Positions 1-53,095 of a stretch of 64,000 bases of DNA are shown in pieces; positions within the stretch are counted from its first letter, which is position 1, and the number at the start of each line of letters is the position of its first letter. The position numbers and the translations under genes are program-made. The stretch comes from Herbiconiux sp. L3-i23 (GTDB lineage Bacteria; Actinomycetota; Actinomycetes; Actinomycetales; Microbacteriaceae): the NCBI RefSeq assembly GCF_023734115.1, contig NZ_AP025737.1, forward strand, positions 2,790,001 through 2,854,000, in the 5' to 3' direction. The notes under the pieces were generated by a model. That model was not told the origin of the DNA, did no database searches, and saw nothing but the letters and a program-made list of their open reading frames with translations.

Positions 1-1187
1 AGATAGGCCGAGCCGACGCCCCCGACGTTCGCTCCCCAGCAGTGGAGCTGAGGGGCGACCACCACGCAGGCAGTCTGCTGTTCGACGAAGAGTTCGGAGA
101 TCGCGCCTGAAGGAAGGCCGGTCACCTTGGCGGGATAGTCGGCTCTTTCTCTCGTCACCTGCCCGCGCCCGACGAAGCTCGGTCCTGCGTCGGTGGACGA
201 GTAGGCCCCGATCGCAGGGTGCCAACACCACACCTCGCTGCCGTTCGATCCGTCACGGAGGACACAGGCGTTACCGGAGGTTCCGGTGCGGATGTCGGTG
301 ACACGGTCGATGGGTGCACCGCTCTGGTCTCGCACGGCCTTCGGCGTGCTGCCGCGGGTCTCTGCCGGTGCCCCGGTGCCCCAGCAGAAGAGCTGGCCGC
401 CGCTCACAGCGCACAGCCCGGCCGACGTCCCGAAATTGACCACCTGTGTCACGGGCCCGCCTGAGGGCAGCGTGATCTGCACGAAGTCCGCGGTCGAGGT
501 GTAGCCGTTCGTTCCCTTGCAGTGGAGGGTGTCGTCCACCGCGACGACGCAGAGCACGTTCCAGCCGACGGAGACCGATTTGAGAGTCCGCGATGCGATC
601 GACCCGGTCGCAAGGCGAGTCGGACTCGGTGAGGCGCTTCCGCCCCAGCAGTACAGGCCGCCGTCCGAGATGCCGCACACGCTGAGGTCGAGGCTGAGGC
701 TCCCGTTCGCTCCGGCTGTCGTTCCGGCGTCGACCTCGGAGAACGGCATCCCGCCGACATTGCGGATGGCGCTGCGGTCTGTCAGCGAGGAGTCCGTCAG
801 ATCGACGGCTGCGGTCGCCGTGCCTGCGTACACCGTCTGGACGTCGGAGAAGTCGGAGTTGGCGGACCGCTCCACGGTGTAGGTCGGCGCGCCGGTGATC
901 CCTCGGTCGGCGAGTGAGGCGGAGACATCGCTCCACGACAAGCTGGTTTGCGTGCCGACCGGCGCCCCTGCGCGCGTCGCGGTGAGGCTTCCTTTCGGAA
1001 GGGAGCCCGCGGCCACCGAATTGCCGGTCGTTCGAGTGGCGTCGACGAAGTAGGCCCCGGTCGACGGGACGGCCACCGCGGCGAAGGCGACAGCCGCGAG
1101 GGTCGCGGCGAGCGCCGTCCGTGACAGCACCCGCGGCACCCATCGGCGTCGCGGACCACGAGCGGTCGAGTCTCTTCTTTTCCCCAT
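1..1187 (-). CDS. SipW-type-exported RCC1 beta-propeller protein (3' end lies outside the window)
   Basis: Probable surface or secreted RCC1-repeat protein. The frame is open to the window edge, so only the first 395 codons are visible. ATG at 1187 follows GGGGGA by 7 bases. Residues 1-20 are Arg-rich, 21-41 hydrophobic, and 42-47 read STGAYF, the hallmark of signal peptides cut by SipW-type peptidases. A half fibronectin-III-like unit follows (LSWSDV, TYTVERS, about 70-115), then at least five RCC1 blades with paired cysteines (CGISDGGLYCWG, CAVSGGQLFCWG, CVVVAPQLHCWG). It lacks the TasA-like domain of the two genes upstream of it. It appears to be its own transcription unit, with a hairpin and a putative operator ahead of it. 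Partner and ligand are unknown. Confidence 0.85.
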   Translation of the reverse strand, partial: MGKRRDSTARGPRRRWVPRVLSRTALAATLAAVAFAAVAVPSTGAYFVDATRTTGNSVAAGSLPKGSLTATRAGAPVGTQTSLSWSDVSASLADRGITGAPTYTVERSANSDFSDVQTVYAGTATAAVDLTDSSLTDRSAIRNVGGMPFSEVDAGTTAGANGSLSLDLSVCGISDGGLYCWGGSASPSPTRLATGSIASRTLKSVSVGWNVLCVVAVDDTLHCKGTNGYTSTADFVQITLPSGGPVTQVVNFGTSAGLCAVSGGQLFCWGTGAPAETRGSTPKAVRDQSGAPIDRVTDIRTGTSGNACVLRDGSNGSEVWCWHPAIGAYSSTDAGPSFVGRGQVTRERADYPAKVTGLPSGAISELFVEQQTACVVVAPQLHCWGANVGGVGSAY

Positions 1188-1272
1188 GTGTCTATCCCCC
1201 ATGCGTCGGGCGTGCAGACGCAGCCCCAGTGTCCTGGGAACGCCGGCCGGCCGCATCCGCTCACCCAGGCTG

Positions 1273-1291
1273 ATGTTCGGTACGCGCACAT
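1273..1291. promoter_or_regulatory. Putative operator, copy 1 of 5 (ATGTTCG-N5-CGCACAT)
   Basis: Reads ATGTTCG-GTACG-CGCACAT, a near-perfect dyad. It lies 86 bases upstream of the start codon at 1187, just downstream of the terminator hairpin of the preceding gene. Four related copies occur at 3604, 10215, 17681 and 19798. Binding by the LuxR-type regulator at 19846-20490 is inferred from co-occurrence only. Confidence 0.55.
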
Positions 1292-1296
1292 TCCGT

Positions 1297-1326
1297 CCGG
1301 TGCGCCTCATGACACCGGCGCACCGG
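1297..1326 (-). terminator. Terminator-like hairpin after the RCC1 gene at 1340
   Basis: Perfect 10-bp arms (CCGGTGCGCC / GGCGCACCGG) with a 10-base loop, 13 bases past the stop codon of the upstream gene in its direction of transcription. There is no T-tract, so this may be a weak or factor-assisted terminator. Confidence 0.5.
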
Positions 1327-1339
1327 CTCTCCGTTGGCG

Positions 1340-3484
1340 TCAGCGACTGGCCGTCACGACGGGGCTGACCCAGCCGGGCACCCCGGCGACCGTGTAGCTC
1401 AGCCGGTAGTAGTAGGTCCCGTTCTCCTGCAGGCTGCACTTGCCGGATGCGAGTTCGACGGAGCCGGTGGCGCACACGGTCGTCCCGTCGAGGCTGCGAA
1501 TGAATTCCATCGGCGCAGTGTTCGAGGTGCCGAGCTGGGCGGTCATCGCCGCGCCGGTGTAGCCCGCAGCGCCCCAACAGGCCACGCGGCCGTCGGTCGT
1601 GATGACGCAGGCGCCGGGGAACGCGGAGCTGGAATTGAGGCGGATCGACGCGATGCTCGCAGTGGCCGCGACGCCCGCCACCGGGGTCGGCGTGTTGTAG
1701 AGCTTGTTGGTGTCGCCGCCGTCGCCGACGATGCCCTGGTAGTCACCGCCCCAGCAGTACGCTTTGGCGTTCGCCAGAGCGCACAGGCCCGCGGTCGTGG
1801 CGACGATGTCGGTCGCTCCGGACACGGAGGACATCTTGGTCATCGTCTGCCCCATGTCCTTCCAGGTGACCTCCGACGGCGCCCAGGGGGCTCCCATCCA
1901 CCCCCAGCACCAGATGTCCGACTTGCTGGTGAGGATGCAGGAGGACTGGGATCCCGACGTCAGCTTGCGGATCGTGGCTCCGTTCAGTGCCGGCGTGAGG
2001 GCGCGGATCGGGTTGAAGGCCTCGACCATCGGAGCGGTGCTCGCGCCGAGCTCGCCCATCATGTTGATGCCCCAGCAGTGGACCGTGTTGTCCGTCGCGA
2101 GCGCGCAGGTGTGGGTGCCGCCGACGGACAGTTGGCTGACCGTCTTGCCCTGCAGGCTGCCGAGGTTCATGCCGACCGCGGTGGTCGACCCGCCGCCCCA
2201 CCCGATCGCGCTCGACTGGGGGTAGCGTCCGGTGACGTTGCCGTAGCCCCAGCAGCCGATGGTGCCGTCGGTGGCCATCGCGCAGGTCCCGCCGCCGGAG
2301 ATCACACCGAACTGACTGACCTTCTTTCCGAGGAGGACTCCCGCGTTGGCGAGGACGGGGAGCAGCGACTTGGTCGTGCCGTTGCCCGGGTAGTCGCCCC
2401 AGCAGTAGAGCTCGCCGGCGTCGGTGAGCGCGCACGAATGCCCGAGGGCGGCGTCGACCTTCACGGCCCGCTTGTTCTGCAGCCCGCCGGTGACCTGCGT
2501 GATCGTCGTCTTCGTGTCGGTGGAGTACGCCCCGCCGTCTCCCGGGTAGCCCTGCCCCGAGCAGTAGACGGCGCCCTGCGCGGTGACGACGCACCCCTGG
2601 AAGCCGTCGGTGGAGACATCGACGTAGCGCCCGGTGGCCGGTGTGCTGCGAGCGACCTCTCCGCTGTCCGCAGCGGCGGCGCCCGTGCCGGAGTAGACGG
2701 TCTGCGGGTTCGAGAAGTCGGCGGACGCGGACCGTTCGACGGTGTAGGTCGGGGTTCCGGTGATCCCCGCGGCGCGCAGCGCGGGTGCCACGTCGGTCCA
2801 GCGGAGATCGGTCGTCGTGCCGGAGGGAACCCCCGCCCTGTTCGCTGTCAGTGACAGGGCTGTGGAGGGCATCCCTCCGGATCCGTTCTGGATCGCGTTG
2901 ATGAAGACGAGGAAGCTGGCGGCGGATTCCTGGAACTGGTTCTCGGAGTCCGTCGACAGCCACATGCGGATCTCGATCTTCGACTGGCCGCCGGCGGCGA
3001 GCCCGCGGCCCTTGGTGAGAGCGCCGTCCGGGATCGCCGTCGCGGGGCGTGAGCCCAGCGTGAGCACATCGGTCAGCGGAGCGCGCTGCTCGTCGTAGAG
3101 CCGGAACCGGAAGTTCGAGAGCTGCTGCTGGGTGATCTTCAGGGTGGCCCTGGGATCGACGATCTGCAGCTCCCAGTCGAGCCCGATCGTGCCGGTGTTG
3201 CGTACCGTGATCCACTCCGACCGCGCCGAGGCACCGTGCGTCGACGTGGACGCCGCCTGCTCATCGGTCATCGGGTAGACGCCCGACACCGCGATCGAGG
3301 TCTGGTCGGAAGTCTTGCCGATCTCGCCGATCGTGAGCAGCGCACCCGACACGCTCGCCCGCGCCGTGGTCGACGCGGTGAACCAGGCACCGCTCAGGCT
3401 GGTGCTCACGCCGGCGAATGCGGTCGCGAGTACCAGGATGGATGCGGCCAGCGCCCTCCGGCGCTTGGTGGATGTCGGTGTCAT
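1340..3484 (-). CDS. TasA-like domain / FN3 / seven-bladed RCC1 fusion protein, SipW-type signal
   Basis: Exported 714-residue protein. ATG at 3484 is chosen because AGGGGAAG lies 8 bases ahead; an upstream in-frame start has none. Residues 1-12 are basic, then a hydrophobic core, then SGAWFTAS. Residues about 40-205 match TasA/CalY-like proteins: VRNTGTIGLDW near the middle and NQFQESAASF...INAIQ at the end. Next comes the first half of an FN3-like domain (DLRWTDV, TYTVERSASADFS). Exactly seven RCC1 units follow, each with a C-x(7-9)-C-(W/S)-G pair (CALTDAGELYCWG, CAMATDGTIGCWG, CVITTDGRVACWG). The C terminus (YYYRLSYTVAG, VVTAS) looks like the last FN3 strands, so the propeller seems inserted in the FN3 fold. 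Likely a cell-surface or fibre-associated adhesin; ligand unknown. Confidence 0.85.
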   Translation of the reverse strand: MTPTSTKRRRALAASILVLATAFAGVSTSLSGAWFTASTTARASVSGALLTIGEIGKTSDQTSIAVSGVYPMTDEQAASTSTHGASARSEWITVRNTGTIGLDWELQIVDPRATLKITQQQLSNFRFRLYDEQRAPLTDVLTLGSRPATAIPDGALTKGRGLAAGGQSKIEIRMWLSTDSENQFQESAASFLVFINAIQNGSGGMPSTALSLTANRAGVPSGTTTDLRWTDVAPALRAAGITGTPTYTVERSASADFSNPQTVYSGTGAAAADSGEVARSTPATGRYVDVSTDGFQGCVVTAQGAVYCSGQGYPGDGGAYSTDTKTTITQVTGGLQNKRAVKVDAALGHSCALTDAGELYCWGDYPGNGTTKSLLPVLANAGVLLGKKVSQFGVISGGGTCAMATDGTIGCWGYGNVTGRYPQSSAIGWGGGSTTAVGMNLGSLQGKTVSQLSVGGTHTCALATDNTVHCWGINMMGELGASTAPMVEAFNPIRALTPALNGATIRKLTSGSQSSCILTSKSDIWCWGWMGAPWAPSEVTWKDMGQTMTKMSSVSGATDIVATTAGLCALANAKAYCWGGDYQGIVGDGGDTNKLYNTPTPVAGVAATASIASIRLNSSSAFPGACVITTDGRVACWGAAGYTGAAMTAQLGTSNTAPMEFIRSLDGTTVCATGSVELASGKCSLQENGTYYYRLSYTVAGVPGWVSPVVTASR

Positions 3485-3603
3485 GGTCGGTGCTTCCCCT
3501 CGAGCGTCCCGCACAGGTCACGCCCCCCGGCGGATGCGAGAACGCAGCTGTCATCTCAGTGTGTTCGATCGCGTCCGTCGCCGTCATCCCGCCGGGGGCG
3601 CCG

Positions 3604-3753: not shown

Positions 3754-5859
3754 TCAGCGCGGTCGGACGGCGGCGGTCGTGGGCGAGTGCCCCGCTGCGA
3801 GCCCTGCGCCGGTGTAGCTGACGCGGTAGTGGTACTCCGTGCCGGGTTCGAGCGAGCACGACGCGGCGCCCGCGACTGCCCCGCCGGCGCACCCGACCTG
3901 GTCGAGCCCGGCGACGGACGCCGGGGTCGAGACGGTGGTGACGGCAGTCGTCGGCGCGGCGCCCGTGATCGCCTTGCTTGCGTTGTTCCCGAAGCACTGC
4001 ACCGCCCCCGAGCGCAGCAGCGCACAGGTCGTGTCGTAGCCGGCGCTCATCGCGACGACCTGCCCGCTTCCGAGCGCGGTGACCGCGCGCGGGCTCGCGT
4101 TGACGGTCGTCGTGTCGCCGGCCCCCAGCTGCCCGTACCGACCCCAGCCCCAACACGATGCGGAGGTCTCGTTCCAGCCGCAGACGTGGCTCTGCCCGGA
4201 GACGACGTGGTCGTACTGGCCGGTCGCGGTGCCGGACGAGCCGGTTCCGCCGGTGCCGATGTCGCCGTTGCCGAACGACCCGTGGTTGTAGTGCCCGGCG
4301 CAGCGCACCGACTTCGCGGCCGTCACGGCGCAGATGCTCTGCCAGCCGACGGACGCGTCGGTCACTCCGGCGTCGGTGCCCGGGAACCGTGTCGGGGTGT
4401 TCAGCGCGGCGGAGTAGTTCGGACTCGGCGTGTATGTGGCCGACAGCTGACCGAACGCGGTGGAGCCCCAGCAGATGAGGCCGTCGGTCTTGACGGCGCA
4501 GAAGTTGCTTCCTCCGCCGACGATGGCGGTGGTGCGTCCCGATGTCAGCAGGGAATAGCGCTCCCCCGAGGACGTGGCGACGAGAGTCGGTGTGGCGCGC
4601 TGGCTGGGTCTCGTCTCCCAGAGCCCGAGCTGCAGGGAACGGTTGTCGCCCCAGCACGCGATGTCGGCGTCAGCGGCGAGGACGCAGGTGCTGTTCTCGG
4701 AGGCGGCGATGTCGACGAGGTCCTTGCCGGAGAGGACCGCGGTCGCGGCGATCTCCGTGGCTCCCGCGGTCGTCGGCCCTCCGGCGACCCCGTCGCCGCG
4801 TTGACCGTAGTTGTCGTCGCCGGCGCAGAAGACGCGATCGGAGGCGGTGATGGCGCACAGGTGGCGTGATCCGGCGGCGATCTTCACCACGTCGGAGGGG
4901 AAGCCGGCGATCGCGGTCACCGACGACCCGGTGCCACCGGTGATGAGCTTGCCCCAGCCGTAGACGCTGCCGCCGATGACGACGTAGGTCGAATCGTTGC
5001 CGAATCCTGCGTTGCTGGTGGCGATGTCGGTCGCGGTGCCGAGCGCCGCCCCGGTGGTGTCGATGTTCGTGCGGGCCGGTCCGGTGTAGACGACCGTCGC
5101 GTCGGAGAAGTCCGCGTTCCGCGACCGCTCGACGGTGTAGGTGACGGAGTTCGGGTCGATCGCGAGGTCGGGCGAGCTCGCCTCGGTCCACGCGAGCTGC
5201 GTCGCGGAGCCGTCCGGGGTTCCGGCACGGTCGGCGGTCAGTTGCACGGGGGCGAGGGTCGGCACGCGGGGCGCACCCGACTGCATGCCGTTCACGATGG
5301 CGGTGAAGGTCACGCTTCCGCCCTGGAAGCGGTCGGTGCTCTCGGGGGTCAGCCACACGGCGAGGCGCAGCCGCGTCTCGGATCGGGCCGGGATCACGTC
5401 GCCCCGATACAGTTGCCCCGACGTTCCGTCCCTCTGCGCGACGGCATCGAAGGTCGACGGGGAGGTGACCGGGGTTCCGCCGTCATCGGTGAGGACGTAC
5501 CGGAAGTTCGCGAGGTCCGCCTGCTCCAACGGCGCGATCGCGGCTGCGCGCGCCAGGTCGAGAGTCCACGCGAGCGGAATGGTGCCCGTGTTCCGCACGG
5601 TGATCCACTGCCATGCCGCGCCTCCCGACAGCGCCTGCGAGTCGGTCATCGGGTAGACGCCGTCGACGTGGACGGTCTCCTCGTCGGACTCGACGCCGAT
5701 CTCCCCGATCGACAGGGTCGCCCCCTCGACGGAGGCCGACGCGGTGGTCGTCGCGGTGAACCAGGCGCCGGACGTCGCGACGGACACTCCGGCGAGGGCC
5801 AGGGCGATGACGGTGACCGCGGCTGCCGCCGAGCGGCGGGCGAGTGGGGTGAGAGGCAT
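3754..5859 (-). CDS. TasA-like domain / FN3 / seven-bladed RCC1 fusion protein, SipW-type signal
   Basis: Exported 701-residue paralogue of the protein at 1340. The N terminus has a short basic run, a hydrophobic core and TSGAWFTATT. The TasA-like domain has VRNTGTIPLAWTLDL and ends with DRFQGGSVTF...VNGMQ. Half an FN3 (QLAWTEA, TYTVERSRNADFS) precedes seven RCC1 units. The first (YVVIGGSVYGWG) has no cysteine, while the other six carry pairs (CAITASDRVFCAG, CVLAADADIACWG, CALLRSGAVQCFG). The last FN3 strands follow (YHYRVSYTGAG). It starts 15 bases after the SipW stop, so it is probably in the same transcript as the peptidase that would process it. No clear Shine-Dalgarno sequence is visible, consistent with coupling. 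Confidence 0.85.
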   Translation of the reverse strand: MPLTPLARRSAAAAVTVIALALAGVSVATSGAWFTATTTASASVEGATLSIGEIGVESDEETVHVDGVYPMTDSQALSGGAAWQWITVRNTGTIPLAWTLDLARAAAIAPLEQADLANFRYVLTDDGGTPVTSPSTFDAVAQRDGTSGQLYRGDVIPARSETRLRLAVWLTPESTDRFQGGSVTFTAIVNGMQSGAPRVPTLAPVQLTADRAGTPDGSATQLAWTEASSPDLAIDPNSVTYTVERSRNADFSDATVVYTGPARTNIDTTGAALGTATDIATSNAGFGNDSTYVVIGGSVYGWGKLITGGTGSSVTAIAGFPSDVVKIAAGSRHLCAITASDRVFCAGDDNYGQRGDGVAGGPTTAGATEIAATAVLSGKDLVDIAASENSTCVLAADADIACWGDNRSLQLGLWETRPSQRATPTLVATSSGERYSLLTSGRTTAIVGGGSNFCAVKTDGLICWGSTAFGQLSATYTPSPNYSAALNTPTRFPGTDAGVTDASVGWQSICAVTAAKSVRCAGHYNHGSFGNGDIGTGGTGSSGTATGQYDHVVSGQSHVCGWNETSASCWGWGRYGQLGAGDTTTVNASPRAVTALGSGQVVAMSAGYDTTCALLRSGAVQCFGNNASKAITGAAPTTAVTTVSTPASVAGLDQVGCAGGAVAGAASCSLEPGTEYHYRVSYTGAGLAAGHSPTTAAVRPR

Positions 5860-5874: not shown

Positions 5875-7119
5875 TCAGGAGGCCCTGCGGCGCCCATGGC
5901 GGGACCGCGCGCGGCGGCCGCGCTCGGGCGAGAAGGAAAGAGGAGGGATCACGCCGGCGGTGACATGCTCGGCGCCGGCGCTGCGCGGCACGACCGCGAC
6001 GGGCGCGGCGGTCGGCGCGACCGAGCGGTCCACCGGGCCGGGAGCGGCGACGGCGAGCGCGGCGGCGAGAGCGAGGGAGTCGAGGTCGACGCTGATGCGG
6101 ACGCGCGGCTGCCCGTCCGGGCCGTCGACCACGGTGATGGCGTAGCCCGGCAGTGCGCCGGGCACGACGTTCGCGACATCGTCGACCGCGTCGACGTCAT
6201 CGACCTCGTCGATGGTGACCGCGGGCAGAGCGGTGGTGGCGGGCCGCGCACCGACGACGGCGGCGACCGGTGCGAACAGCGCCGCGTCCAGCGCGGCCAC
6301 GACCGGCGCGGAGGCGGAGACGGTGGCCGCGACCGGGACGGGCTCGGATGCGGCCCATCGCATGGGGTCGGTCGCACGATCGGCGACGGTGTCGATCACC
6401 GTCGTGGCCGCGGGAGCGGAGTAGGTGGAGCGGAAGACGGGCGCTTCGTCGCCGGCGGCGTCGGCAGCACGCGCGGCGGTACGCGCCCGGCGGCGCAGTT
6501 CGGAGCGCGAGGCGGCGTGCGACCCGGCCGGGGCGGTCTTCGCAGCGCGGGCGGCGCGCTGGGCACGCCGACGTCCTGACCGCGTCTCCGCCGGAGGCGT
6601 CGTGGTGACGGGCTCGGGAGCCGCGATCGGCGACGGCGCTGCAGCGGGCCCGGCGCTCCGGGTGCGCGCGAGCGGGATGAGAGCCAGCCCGAGGATGACG
6701 GCGAGCAGGCAGATCCGCAGCGGCCACTGCTGGAGCTGCAGGATGAGGGCCGCCCACGGCTGGCCCAGATGGAGTTCGACGACGCCCCGGAGGTTCTCGA
6801 GCCCCACGGTGCCCGGGTCCGCGGCGCTGTTGCCGTCGCCCTGGAGTTTGACGGTGCCGTCGGCGTTCAGCTCGATGATGCGGTGCGTGTACATGTCGCC
6901 GTTGCCGTCGACCGCGGTGACCACGGCTCCGACCTGCAGGTCGGTCTCGGCCGGCTCGCGGATCAGGATGAGGTCGCCCACCTGGTAGGTCGGGGTCATC
7001 GACTCGCCGTCGACCTCGACGATCATGCGGCCGCCGATGGTCGTGGCGAGCGCCGGTGTCGCGAGGACGACGACGATCGCGGCGACCAGGATCCAACGGA
7101 TCGCGGAGATGAATCGCAT
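5875..7119 (-). CDS. sipW: SipW-type signal peptidase I with long Ala-rich C-terminal tail (copy 1)
   Basis: Membrane signal peptidase of the ER/SipW class, expected to cleave the TasA-like and RCC1 preproteins nearby. Start ATG at 7119 has GGAGGAG 6 bases ahead. One TM segment (about 9-27) precedes the catalytic domain with Ser40 (VDGESMTPT), His79 (MYTHRI) and Asp95 (QGDGN), i.e. the Ser-His-Asp set rather than Ser-Lys of ordinary bacterial LepB. A second TM (about 135-155, ending LALIPLA) follows. The remaining ~255 residues are an Ala/Arg-rich low-complexity tail, predicted cytoplasmic, ending in a short ordered-looking piece (PRVRISVDLDSL). Typical SipW is about 190 residues, so the tail is unusual. 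Gene order is TasA-like, hairpin, sipW, RCC1 gene. Confidence 0.88.
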   Translation of the reverse strand: MRFISAIRWILVAAIVVVLATPALATTIGGRMIVEVDGESMTPTYQVGDLILIREPAETDLQVGAVVTAVDGNGDMYTHRIIELNADGTVKLQGDGNSAADPGTVGLENLRGVVELHLGQPWAALILQLQQWPLRICLLAVILGLALIPLARTRSAGPAAAPSPIAAPEPVTTTPPAETRSGRRRAQRAARAAKTAPAGSHAASRSELRRRARTAARAADAAGDEAPVFRSTYSAPAATTVIDTVADRATDPMRWAASEPVPVAATVSASAPVVAALDAALFAPVAAVVGARPATTALPAVTIDEVDDVDAVDDVANVVPGALPGYAITVVDGPDGQPRVRISVDLDSLALAAALAVAAPGPVDRSVAPTAAPVAVVPRSAGAEHVTAGVIPPLSFSPERGRRARSRHGRRRAS

Positions 7120-7942: not shown

Positions 7943-8049
7943 GTCGTTCTTCTTTCGTGTGATGGTGCGTTCGGTGATAGTGGTGGAACTGCTGGTGGTG
8001 ATGGATTCGTGTCGCGACGGTGTGGTGCGCGGCAACGTCGTGGGGAGCG

Positions 8050-10053: not shown

Positions 10054-10204
10054 ACCGATCATCTCCCCCAAGATTTCGAAGGACCGAGAAGTATTTCTGC
10101 GAATGCTTTTCTTCGAGCTATTCGGTGTTCACCGCGTCGGTCCGTCCGATTTCTTCATCGGACATCTTCATAGTGGGGGGCGTGGAAAAAGCGCGCAAAC
10201 ACGG

Positions 10205-13200: not shown

Positions 13201-13359
13201 GACGGCGATCGTCGCGAGGGCGGCCGACGCCGCGACACCCGCCACCAGGAAGCGGCGGCGGCGCATGCGAGCACCGACGCGGGCGCGGCGTCCTGAGGAG
13301 GTGCCGAGAAGGGAGAGGATCGCTGCCGCGAGCGTCGTACGGGGTGAGGAGGAGTTCAT
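10285..13359 (-). CDS. Giant RCC1 protein with 14 blades (two seven-bladed propellers), SipW-type signal
   Basis: Exported protein of 1024 residues; start ATG at 13359. A basic stretch (RMRRRRF) and a hydrophobic core precede GSTGAYFTASS. FN3-like half strands follow (STLSWDA, TYSVRRSLSGDFS). I count 14 RCC1 units. Units 1 (VMGGQAYYWG) and 8 (FALVGDTVYTWG) lack cysteine; the other 12 have paired cysteines (CALTSKGTIGCWG, CALATDGTAACWG, CGIGSKGGLYCWG). This fits two consecutive seven-bladed propellers, each opening with a cysteine-free blade. Closing FN3 strands (YTYQVTYTVPN) end the chain. No TasA-like domain. It lies 40 bases after the second SipW gene. Likely an extracellular binding protein; ligand unknown. 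Confidence 0.85.
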   Translation of the reverse strand: MNSSSPRTTLAAAILSLLGTSSGRRARVGARMRRRRFLVAGVAASAALATIAVGSTGAYFTASSTTAGQTGSASSLPAVATFAATKSGGPTGASSTLSWDAPTLQGWTESGVSSTPTYSVRRSLSGDFSATGDSVDLGTTPDRTLLDSAGGASFRQREVTDVAGAHNGVTRVGVAMMAVMGGQAYYWGRITSSLESIGVPALVTGIPDQVVKVAVGVDHGCALTVTSRIFCVGDNTNGELGNGANGSSAAQTTAVEVSSYDAFNSERIVAIGAGEDFSCALTSKGTIGCWGKNNYGQLGLDGDTADKNSPKRVGKANNVVADAFATNKPIQMSVGPWGVCAVKGAASGTNAAPAAPVACWGRSNWRQHGTAYNSNDTTPHSVPVDIPDPNGVLTGATQVKVSHGVTCVLNGKTAPTTNIACWGGGGLGLLGDGAGTTWDDPRSLNTTFTGATTLSVGADTACAFKTNTYVCWGRNGDTQLGRAGVASDAQRADTGAGNRYFFFPDTVSTLPAPFASDTIVGAASAPATNCVVTSKAGLACWGENGTGQLARGSTSTTDSGTVAAVTTADGATDPVLSPDAVTAVAKLVAAARGGNRTFALVGDTVYTWGTKNESTSRMPTRTTPTAIAGFPQGITQLVGGEDHVCALVPSGASAGVWCAGGNVLGQVGDGTVVDRSASAVKVVDADGVLAGKTITAIDAGYDSTCALATDGTAACWGDNSKKQVGLASGSYSMKPVKVNGSEISGTDGRPLLLAAGTDHYCVGRAGGGIACWGQAASYRLGTTSSVDTPTPVRVTDSSNYLGTEPVLSIAADWYSTCAVSGSTANLGKVYCWGENRFGQLGTGTKGANDVGYLIAPISSTSRFSNVAVGTRMACAWGPTATECWGTNDEGWLGRNTTGGADVPFAPASIASGGLLSEGVSSLSMGWRQVCGIGSKGGLYCWGRSDEYQTGQGNTTDVLQPTLVKTSNGGSNLAGPGSRMCLNGATLITSTTCSLSPRLPYTYQVTYTVPNATNWVGAAASTLRR

Positions 13360-13399: not shown

Positions 13400-14338
13400 T
13401 CATCTGGCCCTCCGTCGGCCGTGACGGGTCGCCTCGCGCTGCGAGCGTCGGGTCGGGAAGTCGCCGGTTGTCGCCGTCGGAGGGCCTGCGACTTCGGCGC
13501 TCTCCGCCGCGCGGCGTCCGCGCCGCGGCGCCGGTTCGACGACGACGCTCGGAGACGAGGCGGTCGCAGGAGAGGAGGGATCACGTTTCTCGGTGATATC
13601 GATCACGACGCGGAGCGCGGGGAACCCGTCGGTCTCGTGGGTCGTGACGGTGTAGCGCCCACCGAGTCGGCGCTCCGAGCCGAGCAGCACACGCGCTACC
13701 GCGCTCCGGAGCGAGTCGACGAGGTCGAGAAGTTCCGCTCGCTCCGACTCGGGGACGTTGCGCTGCTGGTCCTGGCGCCGGCTGGTCGCCGCGACCGTCG
13801 CAGTCGAGCGACGTCGACGGGGCCCGTCGCGTCGCGGAGTCTTCGCTTCGGTCGGGAGGTCGTTCGCCTGGGGGCGCCGGCGTCCCCGGACGGGCATGAA
13901 GATGAGTCCCACGATCATGACCAGAAGGCAGGCTCGCAGCGGCCAGCTCTGCAACTGCAGGGCGAAGGTCGCCCACGCTCCGCTCAGGTGGCCGTCGACG
14001 ACGCCGACGACGGTGTCGGGATCGACCGGTGCCGGATCCTCGGTCTCGTTGTTGTCGCCCTTGAGGATCAGCATGCCGTCGTCTTCGACCCCGACGATCC
14101 GGTGGGTGTAGCGGCTGTCCGTCGCGTCGAGCACCGTGACGACCGTGCCGGGGACGAAGTCGGCGGGACGCGGGTCGCGGATCGCGACCACGTCGCCGAG
14201 CAGGAACGTCGGCTCCATGGACTGCCCGTCGACTTCGACCACTGTTCGGCCGCTCAGCTCGACGACGACGGCCGGCACGGCGAGAACACCGATGAGCGCG
14301 ACGACGACGAACCAGCGCAGGATGTTGAGAGGACTCAT
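13400..14338 (-). CDS. sipW: SipW-type signal peptidase I with Arg-rich C-terminal tail (copy 2)
   Basis: 312 residues. TM1 about 8-27; catalytic Ser40 (VDGQSMEPT), His79 (RYTHRI) and Asp95 (KGDNN) at exactly the positions of copy 1. TM2 is about 130-150 (ACLLVMIVGLIFMPV). A ~160-residue basic tail contains a possible helix (LLDLVDSLRSAVARVLL) and a strand-like piece (ALRVVIDITEK). Starts 10 bases after the TasA-like gene at 14349 and precedes the 14-blade RCC1 gene. Expected substrates are those two products. Confidence 0.87.
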   Translation of the reverse strand: MSPLNILRWFVVVALIGVLAVPAVVVELSGRTVVEVDGQSMEPTFLLGDVVAIRDPRPADFVPGTVVTVLDATDSRYTHRIVGVEDDGMLILKGDNNETEDPAPVDPDTVVGVVDGHLSGAWATFALQLQSWPLRACLLVMIVGLIFMPVRGRRRPQANDLPTEAKTPRRDGPRRRRSTATVAATSRRQDQQRNVPESERAELLDLVDSLRSAVARVLLGSERRLGGRYTVTTHETDGFPALRVVIDITEKRDPSSPATASSPSVVVEPAPRRGRRAAESAEVAGPPTATTGDFPTRRSQREATRHGRRRAR

Positions 14339-14348: not shown

Positions 14349-15158
14349 CTAGTAGCTCGTGCCGGTCGGGGCGACGTTCTGGATGCCCTTCGCGCTGAGG
14401 GTGAAGTTCAGCGTGCCGCTCTGCAGCGCGTTGGGCGTATTGGTGTCGAGGAACAGCCGCAGCTTGAGCGTCTTGGTCTCATCGGCGGCGAGCGTGAATT
14501 CTCCGGTATTCGGCAACGCGCTCGAGTCGAGCGCACCGAGGGTCGCCCAGCGTCCGCCTGATGCGCCGTCGACCCAGAACTGGGCGCGAACGTTGGCGAG
14601 GAGCGCTGCGGGTGAACCGGTGGCGGTCGCGATCGAGATCACACCGCGAGTCGGAAGGGAGCCGCCGCGCACCTTGAACTCGATGATGCGGCCGGTGGTC
14701 GGCGCGGCCGCGATGGCGTCCGATGCGGAGAGGGGAACGAGGTTCGTGACCGAGAAGCTCGGGTTGGCCGTATTCGCCGTCGACAGCAGGTCGAATTTCA
14801 ACGTGCCGGGGGCGACGGTCGCCTGCGTCTCCTTGCTGGAGGTGAAGTACGCGTTCGTCGACAGCGCGACGACGCCCGAGCCTGTGGCGAGGAGCGCTGC
14901 GGTGAGAGCCATCGCGCGCACGGACCGGGACCAGCTCCGCCGGCGCTCCGGGACGACGACGGTGCTCGACCTCGGCTCGGCGTCTGCGCCGTCGACGTAG
15001 TGGTCGGCGAGGACTTCGTCGGTTGCGGCGGGCAGCTGGTCGAGTGTGACGAGGGGGGAACGCTCGCCGCGTCGCTCCGGCGCGGTCAGGCCGCGCCGAC
15101 CGTAGCGGGGGCCTCTGGCGCTTCTGGACGTCGTCGGGGGGAAGACCGTGGTGCTCAT
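14349..15158 (-). CDS. TasA-like secreted protein (269 aa)
   Basis: ATG at 15158 overlaps the stop of the preceding sipW (ATGA). About 80 hydrophilic residues precede the hydrophobic core (about 82-100) and STNAYFTSSKE, the SipW-type site. The mature domain has APGTLKFDL, then VRGGSLPTRGVIS in place of the usual VRNTGS, and ends NALQSGTLNFTLSAKGIQ, which matches the TasA-family C-terminal pattern. Similarity is weaker than for the 208-aa protein. Likely a fibre subunit or accessory protein. Confidence 0.78.
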   Translation of the reverse strand: MSTTVFPPTTSRSARGPRYGRRGLTAPERRGERSPLVTLDQLPAATDEVLADHYVDGADAEPRSSTVVVPERRRSWSRSVRAMALTAALLATGSGVVALSTNAYFTSSKETQATVAPGTLKFDLLSTANTANPSFSVTNLVPLSASDAIAAAPTTGRIIEFKVRGGSLPTRGVISIATATGSPAALLANVRAQFWVDGASGGRWATLGALDSSALPNTGEFTLAADETKTLKLRLFLDTNTPNALQSGTLNFTLSAKGIQNVAPTGTSY

Positions 15159-15787
15159 CGCGGGCTCAGCTCCGAAGTGGGGAAGAAGGGGGATGTCGTG
15201 GATGCCTCGTCGGCGGGTTCGCTTCCGATCTCGCCCTCGTCCGAACGCGTGGCGCTCCGGAGGGGCAGGAATGCGATGCCGAGGATGGTGACGAGGAGGG
15301 AGATCCGAAGCGGCCACTGCTGAAGCTGCACGAGGATCGTGCCGAACGGGATGCGGACGACGGTGTCCATCACGCCGACGAGTTGGGAGGGGGCGCGGAC
15401 CTCGGAGTCCACGCTGAAGTTGGCGTCGCCCTTGAGGACCATCCCGCCGTCGGCGTTGATCTGGGTGACGCGGTGGGTGAAGTAGCCACCGTCGTCCTCC
15501 TTGACGGTGACGACATCGCCGACACGGAGTTCCGACGAGTCGAGCGGGCGGATGATCACCACATCGCCTACCGCGAGTGTCGGCGTCATCGATCCCCCGG
15601 TCACCTCGACGATGGTTCGGCCGCCGAAGTGCACGAGCATCGCGGGGACCACGAGCAGCGCGCTCAGGGCGATGACGAGCGCCCAGCGGATGAGCGAGAG
15701 GGTGCGGATGATCGTGCCTTCCAGCGGAGAGAACGGGCGAGGGGGTCGGGGCTGAGCGGACGGGCCGCCCAGCCCCGACTGGGTCAC
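15155..15787 (-). CDS. sipW: SipW-type signal peptidase I, short form (copy 3)
   Basis: The shortest of the three, with almost no C-terminal tail. GTG at 15787 overlaps the upstream stop (GTGA) and gives 210 residues, but this extension is Pro-rich and spans a 10-bp inverted repeat. Counting instead from the ATC at 15709 (7 bases after GGAAGG), the catalytic residues fall at Ser40 (VTGGSMTPT), His79 (YFTHRV) and Asp95 (KGDAN), identical to copies 1 and 2, and IRW aligns too. An AUC start is therefore plausible; no ATG or TTG exists there. TM1 about 8-26, TM2 near the end. Likely matures the 252-aa and 269-aa products. Confidence 0.82.
   Translation of the reverse strand: MTQSGLGGPSAQPRPPRPFSPLEGTIIRTLSLIRWALVIALSALLVVPAMLVHFGGRTIVEVTGGSMTPTLAVGDVVIIRPLDSSELRVGDVVTVKEDDGGYFTHRVTQINADGGMVLKGDANFSVDSEVRAPSQLVGVMDTVVRIPFGTILVQLQQWPLRISLLVTILGIAFLPLRSATRSDEGEIGSEPADEASTTSPFFPTSELSPR
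15745..15779 (-). terminator. Hairpin between a TasA-like gene and sipW copy 3
   Basis: Perfect 10-bp arms (GTCGGGGCTG / CAGCCCCGAC) with a 15-base loop, 5 bases past the stop at 15784. No T-tract. It takes the same position (TasA-like gene, hairpin, sipW) as the hairpin at 7236. Confidence 0.55.
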
Positions 15788-16542
15788 TGGACCTGGGTCG
15801 CGGTGATCTTGAGCTTGAACTTGACCTGCATCTTCTGCAGCGCGTTCTGGTAGTCGGTCGTCCACTTCGCGGTGTTCGCCGAGAGGGTGGCCTGGTCGAC
15901 CCAGACGCGCACGCCGATGGAGCGCTTGTCCGCGTCGGCCGCCGTGCCGCTCTTCTCGAGGTTGGCGCTCGACGCGAGGATCTCCGGCGTCGAGGTGAGC
16001 GTGGTCAACGTTTTGCCGTTGGCGGCCGTGTAGGTGACGGTCGGGTTCGCGGCGTACGCCAGGTCGACGACGTTCACCTTGATGGCGTCCTTGGCGTCGG
16101 CGAGGGTGACCTCGCCGGTGTTCGGGGTCGTGGTGGTGCTCAGCGTCGTAGTGCCGGCCGAGTTCAGCACCTGGATGTCGGTGACCTCGATCTTCCAGCT
16201 GAACTTCGACGTTCCGGCGTTCTCGATGAAGAACGAGCGGGTCGGGGCGGTGGCGAATTCGGCGGGCGTCGCCGCGGTCAGCGGGGCGAGGTCGGTGAGG
16301 GCGATCGGGGCGAGCGCCGACTGGGTGGCGCCGTCCTTGACGTTCAGCGTCACCGAGCGGGTCGTCACGGTGACGTCCGTCTGCTTGGTGTCGGTGAAGT
16401 ACGCGCTCGACGTGACGACGACGCCCGCGATACCCGCTGAGGCGACGAGGCCGGCCAGCGCGAACGCGGTGACCTTCTTACGCCGGTTCTTCGGCGGCGT
16501 GTCAGTGCCGCGCATCCGGCTGCCGTGGACCTGTGCGGTCAT
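15784..16542 (-). CDS. TasA-like secreted protein (252 aa)
   Basis: ATG at 16542. Basic lead (KNRRKK), hydrophobic core about 25-43, then TSSAYFTDTKQ. The mature part has FIENAGTSKFSWKIEV in the place of the family's NTGS strand and ends MQVKFKLKITATQ, matching the TasA C-terminal pattern. It is Thr-rich. It lies between the 214-aa membrane protein and the third sipW. Likely an extracellular fibre subunit; role inferred from family. Confidence 0.78.
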   Translation of the reverse strand: MTAQVHGSRMRGTDTPPKNRRKKVTAFALAGLVASAGIAGVVVTSSAYFTDTKQTDVTVTTRSVTLNVKDGATQSALAPIALTDLAPLTAATPAEFATAPTRSFFIENAGTSKFSWKIEVTDIQVLNSAGTTTLSTTTTPNTGEVTLADAKDAIKVNVVDLAYAANPTVTYTAANGKTLTTLTSTPEILASSANLEKSGTAADADKRSIGVRVWVDQATLSANTAKWTTDYQNALQKMQVKFKLKITATQVQ

Positions 16543-16627: not shown

Positions 16628-17272
16628 TCAGATCTGCCTGGCCATCGCGATGAGTGAGAAGGTCGCCCGCTTGTCCTGGGCGGTGGAGGGCAGACCGTCG
16701 AGCAGACGGGCGGAGACGGTCAGGTCGACGCTCTGTCCGGGGGCCAGGCTGAACTGCGGTCCCGTCTCACGCGTGCCCATGGTCGCGTCGTAGACGACGA
16801 CGGGGTTGCACGCGGTGCAGTCGCCGACCAGTTGCACCCATGGAGCAATGCCGTCGGCGTCGCTCTTGATCTCGGTGCGCAGCGCAATGGCGATCGGCAT
16901 GTCCGTCACGTTCTTGAGGGTGAGTGCGAGGACGTCCGTCGCCTCGGTTCCGAGCGAGAAGGACGATTCCTGCGGGGAGGTCTCGAGCAACGACCAGCCG
17001 AGGAGCGAGCAGGAGTCGGCGGCGTTCGCGGGCGCCGGGGTGGCCGCCGCGCTTCCGAACAGGAAGAGCACCCCCGCGAGGGCTGCCGCGGCGAGTCCAC
17101 GGGCACGCGACGACGACCGACGGCGGAGGACCATGACGCAGAGCAGGGCGACGACTCCGAGTGCGACCAGCGCACCGGCGATGACGACGATCCCGGCGAC
17201 GTCGGCACCTGTCGTCGACAGGTGGACATCGCCCGGGACGAGCACGCATGCGTGATCGATCGACTGATCCAT
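16628..17272 (-). CDS. Two-span membrane protein with extracellular beta domain (paralogue of 8862)
   Basis: 214 residues; ATG at 17272 with GGGGGAAG 3 bases ahead. N-terminal HLSTTGADVAG, a hydrophobic span (about 25-47) and LRRR look like a sortase sorting signal moved to the N terminus. A second span (about 58-80) ends PANA, like a signal peptide. The following domain has C, then C-x2-C (GDCTAC), KNVTDM, DADGI and LAPGQSVDL. It is the first gene of the unit 17272 to 10285. Family unknown to me; anchoring, chaperone or sorting role possible. Confidence 0.72.
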   Translation of the reverse strand: MDQSIDHACVLVPGDVHLSTTGADVAGIVVIAGALVALGVVALLCVMVLRRRSSSRARGLAAAALAGVLFLFGSAAATPAPANAADSCSLLGWSLLETSPQESSFSLGTEATDVLALTLKNVTDMPIAIALRTEIKSDADGIAPWVQLVGDCTACNPVVVYDATMGTRETGPQFSLAPGQSVDLTVSARLLDGLPSTAQDKRATFSLIAMARQI

Positions 17273-17652: not shown

Positions 17653-19584
17653 TCAAATCGAGTAGTCGGCGTTCGCGCCGGTGTTCGCCTCGCGAACATC
17701 CGGGCGCAACGGGATCCGGGCGACGGAGTCGACTGAGCCGCTCTCGCCGGTCACGAGCCATTCACCGTGCATCGAGCGCAGCAGCGCCTTGACCAGGCCG
17801 CCCTCGCTCGGCGCCGCGGGCGCGAACGCGCCGTCGTTGTGGCAGCGGACCTCGAGGGCGAGTCGGAATCGGCCGCTCCCGCCTGGCACGACGGCGACCG
17901 CCAGCTGGGCGGTGCGCGCGCGACCGTGCCGCGCCGCGTTGGTGACCATGTCGACGAGCAGCTCCTCGACGGTGGCGGCGATGGCGCTGTCGGCGTCGAG
18001 GAAGGGGGTCGCGGCGGGGTCGTAGTCGCCGGAGACGTCGACGATGCCCTTCCAGTCGCCTTCGATCCTGGTCATCAGCTCGGGGATGCTCTCCCGCTGC
18101 GCTGCGACCTCGGTCATGCCTTCGAGGTCGTGCGACGCCTCCCGCAGGAGTTTGCCCGTCTCGTCGACGACGTCTTCGATCGACCGCCCCGACTGGCTGC
18201 CGAGGTGGAGGCTGAGGAGCATGGCGGCGGCGGAGAGTCGCCCCTGCACCGGGCCGTGCAGCAGGGCGGCGACCCGGCGGCGGACGTCGTCGGCGTGCAG
18301 GTGCGCATCGGTTGCGATGCTCCGGAGTTCCGCGTTGCGACGGTCGAGCTCGTCCATGAGGCCGAGCGTGTGCCGCCGCGTGGAGACCGTGACCGACGTC
18401 ATGACCGTCGCGAGCGCGACGAGCGGCGCGAAGAGGAACAGGGGGGTCAACTGGGTGTCGACCTCGAATGAGGGCCCGATGCCTTCGACGAGCGGGGGGA
18501 CGAGCCCGACGCCGACGGCGATTGCGGCGATGAGGCTCCACTGCACCCACGCCGCAGCGGTGTCCGTCAGGCGTTTCGTGCGCTGCTCGACGACGGTGAG
18601 GATCACGGTGGAGGCGAGGATCGAGACGACCCCGAGCAGCACGGTGCCCGCACCCGCGGTCCGATAGATCTCGGGGCCGGTACCCACGATGATCATCATC
18701 GCGCCGACCCACGGCCACATGATCGGTCGGCGGAGCACGTCGAGCACGACGTCGTCGATGATGCGGGGACGGGCGAGACGGGCCGAGTCGATGCTGCCCG
18801 GTTCGGCGACCCGATGACTGGTGAGGCGCACGACGTCGGAACCGACCTTCTCGATGTCGGCGGCCAGGTTCTTCAGGACGTTGCGGGTGAGCGACGAGTT
18901 GATGGCGGCGACCCGCTCGCTGAGCCGCGCGATGTGCGGTTCGACGGCGGTGCGCACGGCGGACGAAAGGGCCGCGACCTGCTCGTCGAGGCTCTGCGAT
19001 GCGGTGTCGCGCACGCGCTGCAGTCGGCGTCCGGCCGCGTCGATCTCCTCGAGGCGTTGCCGTCTGATGTCGAGCATCGCCTGCACGAGGGCGCTGGCGG
19101 GCACCCAGACCACCGCGCCCGCGATCGACCCGATCAGCCGCAGCACCCACTCCGGGTCGGCGTCGGTCCAGGCCGAGACGCACAGCCCCCGCGCGATGCC
19201 GAGCGCGGCGCCCGCGGTCACCCAGTATCCGACCTGCACCGGGAGGCCGGCCGGTGTCACCGAGCGGCGACGCATGAAGAGCAGGACGTACAGGCCGCCG
19301 GCGACGAACGACGCACCGACTCCGATCAGCCCCACTCCGATCGAGCCGAGCGTGGTGAATCCCGTCGGCGCCTCGAGGGCGGCGATCGCGAAGGCCGCGG
19401 GCAGGAACATGATCAGGTACGACGACCAGGCGAACGCCCACCGTCCGCCGGTCAGGGCGAGGACGTGGCGCAGGCGCCCGGGAAGCCGCGCGATCCCGTC
19501 GCGGAGCCGATCCCCGGTCGGGCGCTCGATCGCCACGGGAGCGGACGCGGCGGTCGGCGCGGGAGGAGTGTCGATGGTGGTCAC
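17653..19584 (-). CDS. Membrane histidine kinase-like protein
   Basis: 643 residues, GTG start at 19584 without a clear ribosome site. About four N-terminal TM segments (45-170), a helical linker, about three more TM segments (295-415), then a coiled stretch. The dimerisation helix has LLHGPVQGRL (about 455), fitting the HxxxQ type of NarL-partner kinases. The ATPase domain has an N-box (VTNAARHG, about 560) but the G-boxes are degenerate (NDGAF, and no clear GxG), so catalysis is uncertain. It follows the response-regulator gene, so it is probably its partner, sensing an envelope signal to control the locus. The 3' coding end contains operator copy 4. Confidence 0.78.
   Translation of the reverse strand: MTTIDTPPAPTAASAPVAIERPTGDRLRDGIARLPGRLRHVLALTGGRWAFAWSSYLIMFLPAAFAIAALEAPTGFTTLGSIGVGLIGVGASFVAGGLYVLLFMRRRSVTPAGLPVQVGYWVTAGAALGIARGLCVSAWTDADPEWVLRLIGSIAGAVVWVPASALVQAMLDIRRQRLEEIDAAGRRLQRVRDTASQSLDEQVAALSSAVRTAVEPHIARLSERVAAINSSLTRNVLKNLAADIEKVGSDVVRLTSHRVAEPGSIDSARLARPRIIDDVVLDVLRRPIMWPWVGAMMIIVGTGPEIYRTAGAGTVLLGVVSILASTVILTVVEQRTKRLTDTAAAWVQWSLIAAIAVGVGLVPPLVEGIGPSFEVDTQLTPLFLFAPLVALATVMTSVTVSTRRHTLGLMDELDRRNAELRSIATDAHLHADDVRRRVAALLHGPVQGRLSAAAMLLSLHLGSQSGRSIEDVVDETGKLLREASHDLEGMTEVAAQRESIPELMTRIEGDWKGIVDVSGDYDPAATPFLDADSAIAATVEELLVDMVTNAARHGRARTAQLAVAVVPGGSGRFRLALEVRCHNDGAFAPAAPSEGGLVKALLRSMHGEWLVTGESGSVDSVARIPLRPDVREANTGANADYSI
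17681..17699. promoter_or_regulatory. Putative operator, copy 4 of 5, inside the kinase gene
   Basis: Reads GTGTTCG-CCTCG-CGAACAT, with complementary TTCG / CGAA arms. It lies in the last codons of the kinase, about 410 bases upstream of the 214-aa gene and before the strong terminator, so a direct role at that operon is less clear than for the other copies. Confidence 0.4.
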
Positions 19585-19611
19585 GAGAGACGATCGGGGC
19601 GTCGGCCGCAG

Positions 19612-19656
19612 GCGGAGGGGGTAGGGCCACCCGAGGCCCTACCCGCCCTCCGCGAT
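19612..19656 (-). terminator. Long hairpin between regulator and kinase genes
   Basis: Core arms GGGTAGGGCC / GGCCCTACCC with a 6-base loop, extended by imperfect pairing of GCGGAGG and CCTCCGC. It ends 28 bases before the kinase start and has no T-tract; possible attenuator or processing site. Confidence 0.5.
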
Positions 19657-19797
19657 CCGTCCCCCCGGACGGACCTGCGTACTGTCTTCGGACCCCGCCC
19701 CCCGGCGGTGTCCTCTCGCGTCCCCGACCCGATCGGGGAGCGGCATGTCTCAAGGATGCTGGCTTCGATCCTGCGCGGCAACCGCGCGGGGCTCGCG

Positions 19798-19816
19798 ATG
19801 TTCGCGGAGCGCACAT
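19798..19816. promoter_or_regulatory. Putative operator, copy 5 of 5
   Basis: Reads ATGTTCG-CGGAG-CGCACAT in the 261-base gap between the regulator stop (19846) and the kinase start (19584). This suggests that the kinase has its own promoter under the same control. Confidence 0.55.
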
Positions 19817-19845
19817 CCGGTCGCGGCGAGGCCGCGAGGCGGGTG

Positions 19846-20490
19846 TCAGTGGACACGCACCCGCCCCTGCTGCCACATCAGGACGGCACCGGTGCGCGGG
19901 TCGAGGTCGTTCACGCTCTTCAGCCCCAGCTTCTCGTAGAGGCGCTGGATCATCATCTCGGTCGCCCGCACCGTGGTGTTGCGGTGTTGAGCAATCCGCG
20001 AGGTTGCGGCGCCTTCGGAGAGCATCCGGAGCACCTCCGCCTGACTGCGGGTGACGACGGTGCGACCCTCGTCGTCGGTCGCCGACGGGCGCGGTGCGCC
20101 GGTCTCCCCCGCCAGCGCGCGGTCGAGGGCTCCGAGCAGGGTCTGCACGTCGCGCAGCTCGCTCTTCACGAGGTACACCGTGGGCGCTGGCAGTTCGGCG
20201 TCGGGGCCGATCGCGAGCTCCGGCGAGGCGTGCGAGGTGAGCGCGATCATGCCCATCCACGGCTGGTCCTCGTAGACGCGCGCGAGCAGGTCGGCGCCGG
20301 ACGGGCCGGGACCGAAGTTCAGGTCGGAGACCACGACGTGGAAGTCGTCGTCGGCGAGCGCCGTCATCGCTGCGTTGACCGCCTCGACCGCGACCACCTC
20401 GTGCTCCGCGGCGCGCAGCGCGTCGCTCACGAGCGTGCGGGTGAACGGGTCGTCCTCGACGACGAGGATCTTGAGCGATCCGTTGGACAT
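19846..20490 (-). CDS. LuxR/NarL-type two-component response regulator
   Basis: 214 residues; ATG at 20490 has GGGGAGG 7 bases ahead. Receiver domain about 7-125: acidic pair (VEDDPF), phospho-acceptor Asp in VVVSDLNF, Thr in ALTSHA, Lys in YLVKSE. A short linker leads to a C-terminal LuxR-like helix-turn-helix (about 150-200; VTRSQAEVLRMLSEGAATSRIAQ, read in part). The kinase gene follows in the same direction. The adjacent SipW/TasA/RCC1 genes carry the dyad that is the best candidate for its binding site. It is divergent from the aldehyde dehydrogenase. Confidence 0.85.
   Translation of the reverse strand: MSNGSLKILVVEDDPFTRTLVSDALRAAEHEVVAVEAVNAAMTALADDDFHVVVSDLNFGPGPSGADLLARVYEDQPWMGMIALTSHASPELAIGPDAELPAPTVYLVKSELRDVQTLLGALDRALAGETGAPRPSATDDEGRTVVTRSQAEVLRMLSEGAATSRIAQHRNTTVRATEMMIQRLYEKLGLKSVNDLDPRTGAVLMWQQGRVRVH

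Positions 20491-48010: not shown

Positions 48011-53095
<5,085 letters not shown>

Follow-up and report, generated by a model that had tools for sequence, protein, structure and literature searches.

What does an actinobacterium do with three SipW-type signal peptidases, four TasA-like proteins, four RCC1-type propeller proteins, and two paralogous membrane proteins that are encoded side by side? The question is raised by a locus of Herbiconiux sp. L3-i23 that lies in a stretch of 64,000 nucleotides (positions 2790001 to 2854000 on the 3.14-Mb contig NZ_AP025737.1; the whole stretch is termed the window herein) and runs on the minus strand from window position 20490 past the left edge of the window to position −531, about 21 kb in all. 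In our view, its products probably make up a modular surface fiber that is anchored to the cell. An initial annotation had described a single-strand locus with SipW, TasA-like, RCC1, and membrane proteins next to a kinase and a regulator, and every one of these items proved real and is encoded on the minus strand; that gene list had overlooked a small open reading frame (ORF) at 9664 to 10071 and had ended at the window edge, whereas the last gene, RCC1_D, extends to −531, followed by the S10 ribosomal operon. Neighboring genes of the locus overlap or are at most about 400 bases apart, and they form two units, M1-T1-SipW_a-T2-SipW_b-RCC1_A and M2-T3-T4-SipW_c-RCC1_B-C-D. The sequence itself establishes which genes are present, the class of their signals, the order of their domains, the repetition of cassettes, and the presence of relatives. 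Gene names and functions in neighboring loci were mostly assigned by eye, and the statistical tests throughout are uncorrected for common descent.

SipW-type peptidases, TasA-like proteins, and RCC1 propellers

Three of the six matches to TIGR02228 in the genome (3.18 Mb) lie within 9.0 kb at the locus, with E values of 2.0e-21, 5.8e-20, and 4.0e-19 in the genome search and scores of 77.3, 70.8, and 64.9 bits, all above the curated cutoff of 51.85 bits, which bears out the three SipW-type peptidases first annotated. They are SipW_a (15155 to 15709; E = 1.1e-21 for the gene; start uncertain), SipW_b (13400 to 14338; E = 1.1e-19), and SipW_c (5875 to 7119; E = 7.7e-18; ending HGRRRAS). By eye, GxSMxP and THR motifs were present in 7/7 aligned SipW copies, indicating a Ser-His instead of a Ser-Lys dyad, as is described for SipW-type enzymes in PMC10269814. 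At the conserved N terminus of SipW_a there is no ATG, GTG, or TTG, and a GGAAGG lies shortly upstream of ATC ATC CGC. SipW_b and SipW_c have a long tail after the last transmembrane segment (TM) with an HGRRRA-like C-terminal end, as do their counterparts in Amnibacterium flavum, a species of the same genus. We rejected the idea that several SipW copies are remarkable in themselves: a SipW match (E ≤ 1e-6) was found in 133 of 199 sampled genomes of the family, and this genome has three more matches outside the locus (L009, L010, and L011), one of them below the cutoff. Each of these three genes adjoins proteins with SipW-like signals, as judged by eye.

All eight exported proteins of the locus (four TasA-like and four RCC1-type) have a hydrophobic stretch ending in A-[Y/W]-F, and TasA, which is processed by SipW, likewise has a Phe at P2' (PMC10269814). 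Against the cutoff of 19 bits for TIGR04088, T2 scored 17.9 bits, T4 scored 17.2 bits (16.8 for a longer ORF), and the T protein of genome G129 scored 26.0 bits; T1, T3, RCC1_A, RCC1_B, RCC1_C, and the in-window part of RCC1_D had no match to this model. Over the window and A. flavum (L022 to L024), the residue after the likely cleavage point was Tyr or Trp in a ratio of 10:1 in cassette 1 and 2:10 in cassette 2 (Fisher P = 0.0006, relatedness uncorrected; the eleventh first-cassette row was added by reading the alignment output, and the automatic count was 9:1 versus 2:10, P = 0.0019), a contrast hinting at matched SipW-substrate pairs that we treat as a lead.

The TasA-like proteins are T1 (15784 to 16542; signal SSAYFTD), T2 (14349 to 15158; TNAYFTS), T3 (8050 to 8865; TAAWFTA), and T4 (7316 to 8053; TGAWFTD). 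When an 11-row profile of these proteins and their relatives (A8) was searched against 177,635 distinct PDB sequences, the TasA entries 5of1 (E = 0.017) and 8aur (E = 0.019) took the top two ranks (profile positions 86 to 234), a result that is weakened by A8 having been built, with rows from genomes G129 and G087 added, and searched with a wider E limit after an 8-row profile (A3) had failed. Kinship of the T proteins to TasA is likely but not proven. Together with the repeated cassettes, these top-ranked if modest matches uphold the initial annotation in its view of a modular SipW-dependent export locus that probably forms a fiber.

The propeller proteins are RCC1_A (10285 to 13359; 1,024 amino acids), RCC1_B (3754 to 5859), RCC1_C (1340 to 3484), and RCC1_D (1 to 1187 in the window and on to −531). 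The first three matched Pfam RCC1 families above the cutoffs (best E values of 2.9e-82 for RCC1_A and then 4.6e-43 and 1.1e-38), and RCC1_D is related to RCC1_B and RCC1_C but divergent, with 27% identity to RCC1_B over 551 columns (E = 5e-20, a value that holds for this single comparison) and 29% to RCC1_C (E = 5e-22). The SipW-class signal predicted for four RCC1 proteins is present in all four, while the family assignment by Pfam extends to A, B, and C but not to D. A search of the genome with one RCC1 repeat family found five genes, three at the locus and two elsewhere, with RCC1_D a sixth by likeness, and the signal ends in A-[YW]-F in 6/6 RCC1 proteins of this genome. The two genes elsewhere (L020, 8067 to 10028; L021, 7164 to 9845) have SipW-class signals, and no T, M, or SipW gene was seen beside them by eye.

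RCC1_B and RCC1_C have a complete TasA-like domain ahead of the propeller, which aligns with T3 and T4, and RCC1_A and RCC1_D are without one. The propeller itself appears to be housed in a second domain. In a set of 19 RCC1 proteins that covers A. flavum and three other genera besides this genome, a tail of the form C...C-[ST]-L...Y-x-Y...[YF]-T was found strictly in 12 and more loosely in 6, with neither form in Af_v1; for a segment before the repeats, the search expression W...YTVERS...F hit 7 of the 19, leaving out a match inside the L021 repeats, and by eye the segment looked present in several more. Segment and tail seem to be the first and last strands of a fibronectin type III (FnIII)-like domain into which the propeller is inserted, so that the order in RCC1_B and RCC1_C would be SipW signal, TasA-like domain, FnIII-like first half, propeller, and FnIII-like second half, and the repeats of RCC1_A would stand between two FnIII-like halves. 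The tails of RCC1 proteins from G129, G027, and G011 matched Pur_ac_phosph_N weakly (28.2, 15.5, and 14.8 bits; cutoff, 30 bits), and RCC1_A, B, C, and D did not match it; we take this purple acid phosphatase N-terminal domain to be FnIII-like. A first alignment of the long RCC1 proteins (A4) was discarded as visibly wrong, RCC1_A being without the TasA-like domain, and an alignment of RCC1_B, RCC1_C, T3, and T4 (A6) was folded in its place; the resulting RCC1_B model matched the propellers of UVR8, RCC1, and BLIP-II (1jtd and 3qi0).

M proteins and their N-terminal sorting-signal-like segment

M1 (16628 to 17272) and M2 (8862 to 9551) had been annotated as two paralogous membrane proteins, which they are in the sense of being present and related, but they are better read as a TasA-like exported domain behind an N-terminal segment that resembles a sorting signal. 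Both share one order of elements: a Cys, an LxxTG-like motif, a TM, RRR, a second TM with a signal-peptidase-like AxA at its end, and a domain with a Cys near its start (M1, Cys9, LSTTG, ANA, and Cys88; M2, Cys15, TALTG, ARA, and Cys104). In 8/8 M-type proteins, the sorting-signal-like segment is at the N terminus and not at the C terminus, and one Cys precedes the motif by 0 to 18 residues, with a second Cys a short way past the second TM. Of the C-terminal sorting signals, 1/20 has a Cys in the 25 residues ahead of the motif (Fisher P = 2.9e-6 for 8/8 versus 1/20, with relatedness uncorrected, as four of the eight are Amnibacterium paralogues or orthologues and several of the 20 are almost the same). 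Four of the eight have a canonical motif (LASTG in G129, LPATG in G087, LPGTG in G068, and LAATG in G304), and the four Amnibacterium proteins have a degenerate one (LSTTG, TALTG, LGTTG, and MAVTG). The M protein of G087 scored 24.5 bits (cutoff, 27) and 15.2 bits (cutoff, 15.9) for the LAVTG/LPXTG models NF058582 and TIGR01167, below both cutoffs, and M1 and M2 matched only NF058583, weakly (E = 0.001 and 0.005). Three matches to sortase PF04203 were found in the genome, none of them in the locus.

The N-terminal segment is very probably translated, because it is better conserved than the rest of the protein (57% versus 36% and 51% versus 42% identity) and most of its nucleotide differences fall at third codon positions (18/14/29 and 20/10/32 for the three positions). 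The same two observations disfavor an internal start, with which M would be a signal-peptide protein of the ordinary kind.

A six-row profile (A7) gave 46 matches in 39 of 398 family genomes, 6 of them being the members themselves. We read 26 of the other 40: 20 were C-terminal sorting signals of other proteins, matched via the N-terminal segment, 3 (L144, L151, and L157) were SipW-type exported proteins matched via the domain, in the C-terminal part of the profile, 2 (in G068 and G304) were M-like with the signal at the N terminus, and L155 was not classed. Among 394 genomes of the class, A7 matched five, with a full-length match in the present genome only. An earlier M profile (A2) matched 43 of the 398 family genomes at E ≤ 0.001, strongly in the present genome and A. 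flavum only; it missed the M genes of G087 and G129, both of which were met in RCC1 neighborhoods. An inspection of 12 loci found C-terminal sorting signals in 7, and L028, L030, and L032 were uninformative. N-terminal look-alikes at L138/L180 (G199, LADTG) and L176 (G059, LMSTG) were not counted as M-type, because they have no Cys before the motif and no exported domain behind a second signal was seen in the stretch covered.

The aligned M and T profiles matched with a probability of 88% (E = 2.9e-6) over the last 46 columns, and the M profile found nothing meaningful among the PDB sequences. With Foldseek, the best match of a model of the M domain was the archaeal bundling pilus 7ueg (E = 3.5e-4; mean pLDDT of the model, 55.4), which PMC9674648 calls a TasA-like system.

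Two M-like proteins were seen in other settings. In G304 (L168/L173), the protein starts MTSCLAATG, followed by a TM, a second TM, and an exported domain that by eye is seemingly unrelated to TasA. In G068 (L172, 7739 to 10465), the scheme recurs with another payload: the M gene comes after genes for a SipW-type exported protein and for a protein with a probable ice-binding (DUF3494) domain, and no SipW gene is present in the stretch. Since the exported domain in G304 looks unrelated to TasA, the N-terminal arrangement may be a general display device. We tentatively propose that sortase ties the Cys-bearing N-terminal peptide of M to the cell wall, that signal peptidase I frees the domain behind the second TM, and that a disulfide bond between the two conserved cysteines holds the domain on the wall, although we consider this less likely than not. 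It is equally conjectural that the domain tethered in this way would be the fiber base here and a seemingly unrelated domain in G304, and that the tether could be released by reduction. This sortase-and-disulfide tether is the boldest step that we infer. In the open-licence literature, we found no paper that names an N-terminal sorting signal together with sortase and LPXTG, and we could not match the M architecture to a described one.

Relatives, regulation, and alternatives to a fiber

A. flavum (G002) carries a larger version of the locus at the same site, with five SipW matches, two M proteins, eight TasA-like proteins (seven aligned and one read separately), and seven RCC1 proteins, and a genome scan with the kinase matched this one locus. 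The orders SipW-T-SipW-RCC1_A and M2-T-T-SipW-RCC1 are common to both species. Two A. flavum TasA-like proteins, U1 (L022, 17051 to 17668) and U5 (L023, 6610 to 7230), are nearly identical and belong to different cassettes. The comparison within the genus covered the stretches upstream of S10 in seven other genomes. G008 has the regulator and kinase only (L119, 7299 to 9765), between a topoisomerase-like gene and S10; other genes stand there in G001, and none of the locus genes was seen among the ORFs, read by eye, upstream of S10 in G003, G004, and G005 and in short stretches of G006 and G007. The small ORF at 9664 to 10071 encodes a protein without a predicted signal (by eye) and without a Pfam match, and it has a relative in A. 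flavum (DEGLWFVRTL). The remainder of the window (20.5 to 64 kb) was covered by ORF and RNA-family scans, which showed a complete rRNA operon (16S, 23S, and 5S) at 47764 to 53092 on the minus strand, matching a drop in G+C content at 48 to 54 kb.

Outside the genus, relatives of RCC1_B were found in 13 of 199 sampled genomes (15 with the present genome and A. flavum). In the 12 that were examined (13 stretches; G108 was left out), SipW lay within about 10 kb of RCC1 in 5, namely, G011, G027, G059, G087, and G129, which represent five genera; about 0.23 would be expected from the SipW numbers (P = 4e-6, a rough Poisson estimate). RCC1 next to SipW is thus not confined to this genus. G129 (L117) and G087 (L114) contain a minimal set of M, T, RCC1, and SipW genes, the RCC1 proteins of G059 look different at both ends, and G011 encodes an ordinary exported protein with a C-terminal LALTG signal, which is likely the anchor there.

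We infer polymerization, anchoring, incorporation of the RCC1 proteins, a binding role, and regulation as follows. T1 to T4 would leave the cytosol through Sec, lose their signals to the local SipW enzymes by a cut before the aromatic-Phe pair, and polymerize outside the cell, probably by donor strand, as described for TasA (PMC9674648). Having their own TasA-like domain, RCC1_B and RCC1_C could be joined into the fiber; RCC1_A and RCC1_D, where this domain is missing, may cap it by their N-terminal segment; the propellers held in the FnIII-like domain would be binding modules. M1 and M2, with a TasA-like domain behind an N-terminal sortase-type signal, would be the fiber bases, and the upstream kinase and regulator plausibly switch the locus on.

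Several observations weigh against this reading. Pfam PF12389 (Peptidase_M73) had no match in the genome at E ≤ 0.001, and the 8-row T profile did not list TasA at E ≤ 1 and gave malate dehydrogenase alone (E = 0.22 to 0.23), so that of the initial annotation's four TasA-like proteins, the four genes with SipW-class signals stand, but the name TasA-like leans on the E values of 0.017 and 0.019. RCC1_D had no Pfam RCC1 match, either as its in-window part or as a whole. Both structure models are of low confidence (mean pLDDT of 55.4 for the M domain and 55.8 for RCC1_B), and the 7ueg match has a TM-score of 0.36 to 0.42 and is closely trailed by unrelated beta-sandwiches. No SipW gene was nearby in 7 of the 12 genomes with RCC1 matches, and the present genome itself has two orphan RCC1 genes. 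Finally, a hairpin with 14 pairs and a T-rich tail, resembling an intrinsic terminator, lies between the kinase gene and M1 (17525 to 17494, minus strand); terminator-type sites in the region number 9, versus 5.7 ± 2.1 in shuffled sequences.

The response regulator (19846 to 20490; start MSNGSLK) has a receiver domain (Pfam Response_reg, E = 9e-11) and a weak LuxR-type helix-turn-helix (GerE, E = 8e-4, below the cutoff). The multi-TM protein encoded next to it (17653 to 19584) had no Pfam or NCBIfam match, and its label as a sensor kinase comes from motifs recognized by eye, a His in LLHGPVQ and an N-box-like NAARHG. The hairpin after the kinase gene suggests a separate transcript for the fiber genes, and because it separates the two, control by the kinase is unproven; the two-component control assumed in the initial annotation comes down to adjacency with a terminator-like hairpin in between. 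Kinase and regulator may be unrelated neighbors at a shared insertion site, with no control over the fiber genes, a possibility to which we give somewhat less than an even chance: it fits the hairpin and the presence of regulator and kinase alone at this site in G008, but the two species with fiber genes share 63% identity in the kinase, while the kinase of G008 scored only 173 bits (a contrast biased by the profile having been built from the two other kinases), and in Clostridium perfringens, BsaRS is required for expression of sipW-bsaA (PMC7395162).

We also considered that there is no fiber and that the locus encodes single proteins, secreted or wall associated, with the T proteins as small carriers or chaperones and the propellers as individual binding proteins like BLIP-II, a secreted propeller inhibitor. 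The RCC1_B model does match BLIP-II (1jtd and 3qi0), RCC1_A and RCC1_D have no TasA-like domain, and the orphans L020 and L021 were seen by eye to stand without T, M, or SipW neighbors; against this, RCC1 genes are repeatedly paired with T, M, and SipW genes, and a TasA-like domain is fused to the propeller in RCC1_B and RCC1_C, which leaves single proteins an unlikely alternative to a fiber. More improbable still is a variable surface-antigen or phage-receptor locus whose cassettes were duplicated and diversified to alter the surface with no specific ligand, since the two cassette orders are kept in both species, even though the full locus is confined to the present genome and A. flavum, with regulator and kinase only in G008 and nothing seen at the site in others of the genus, and A. 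flavum has the genes in higher numbers, two of its T proteins being nearly identical.

Comparison with known systems

Because five other genera have smaller SipW/RCC1 sets, we file the locus as an enlarged variant of SipW-TasA fiber systems. We found no open-licence paper that names both SipW and RCC1, which leaves the initial view of an undescribed gene set uncontradicted, but the sipW-bsaABCRSD locus of C. perfringens already pairs SipW, a fiber, and a two-component system. New here seems to be the propeller inserted in an FnIII-like domain, with a complete TasA-like domain ahead of it in two proteins, and new are the M proteins, in which a sortase-type sorting signal stands at the N-terminal end of a TasA-like protein. 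If the fiber reading is right, SipW-TasA type fibers would exist in Actinobacteria as a kit in which fiber, peptidase, payload, and anchor are duplicated together, and fibers would have a natural way of being decorated with propeller binding domains. The permuted sorting signal, with its pair of cysteines, would in turn bring a new principle into surface anchoring.

The tapA-sipW-tasA operon of Bacillus subtilis is alike in having a SipW-type peptidase with exported substrates; among solved structures, TasA ranks highest for the T profile, and the local A-[YW]-F site resembles the Phe at P2' of TasA (PMC10269814). It differs in that the present locus has more than one copy of SipW and of the TasA-like proteins, RCC1 fusion proteins, and anchors with an N-terminal sorting signal, and in that the local proteins do not match PF12389. 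The sipW-bsaABCRSD locus, set beside ours by its description, likewise combines SipW, a SipW-dependent extracellular polymer, more exported proteins, and a two-component system on which expression depends; it has one SipW, no RCC1 is mentioned in the available text, and BsaA is without an LPXTG-like motif (PMC7395162). The two-component genes are adjacent here too, but the terminator-like hairpin splits the kinase from the fiber genes. The archaeal bundling pilus 7ueg is the best fold match of the M domain, from a low-confidence model, and is archaeal, unlike this locus. With RCC1, UVR8, and BLIP-II, the local RCC1 proteins have the propeller repeats in common, whereas they carry a SipW-class signal and the propeller is apparently inserted in an FnIII-like domain. 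Finally, the N-terminal segment of the M proteins, with its motif (degenerate in four of the eight), TM, and positive tail, resembles the signal of LAVTG/LPXTG sortase-dependent surface proteins (NF058582 and TIGR01167), but in the M proteins it is N-terminal, and a second signal-like TM and then a domain come after it.

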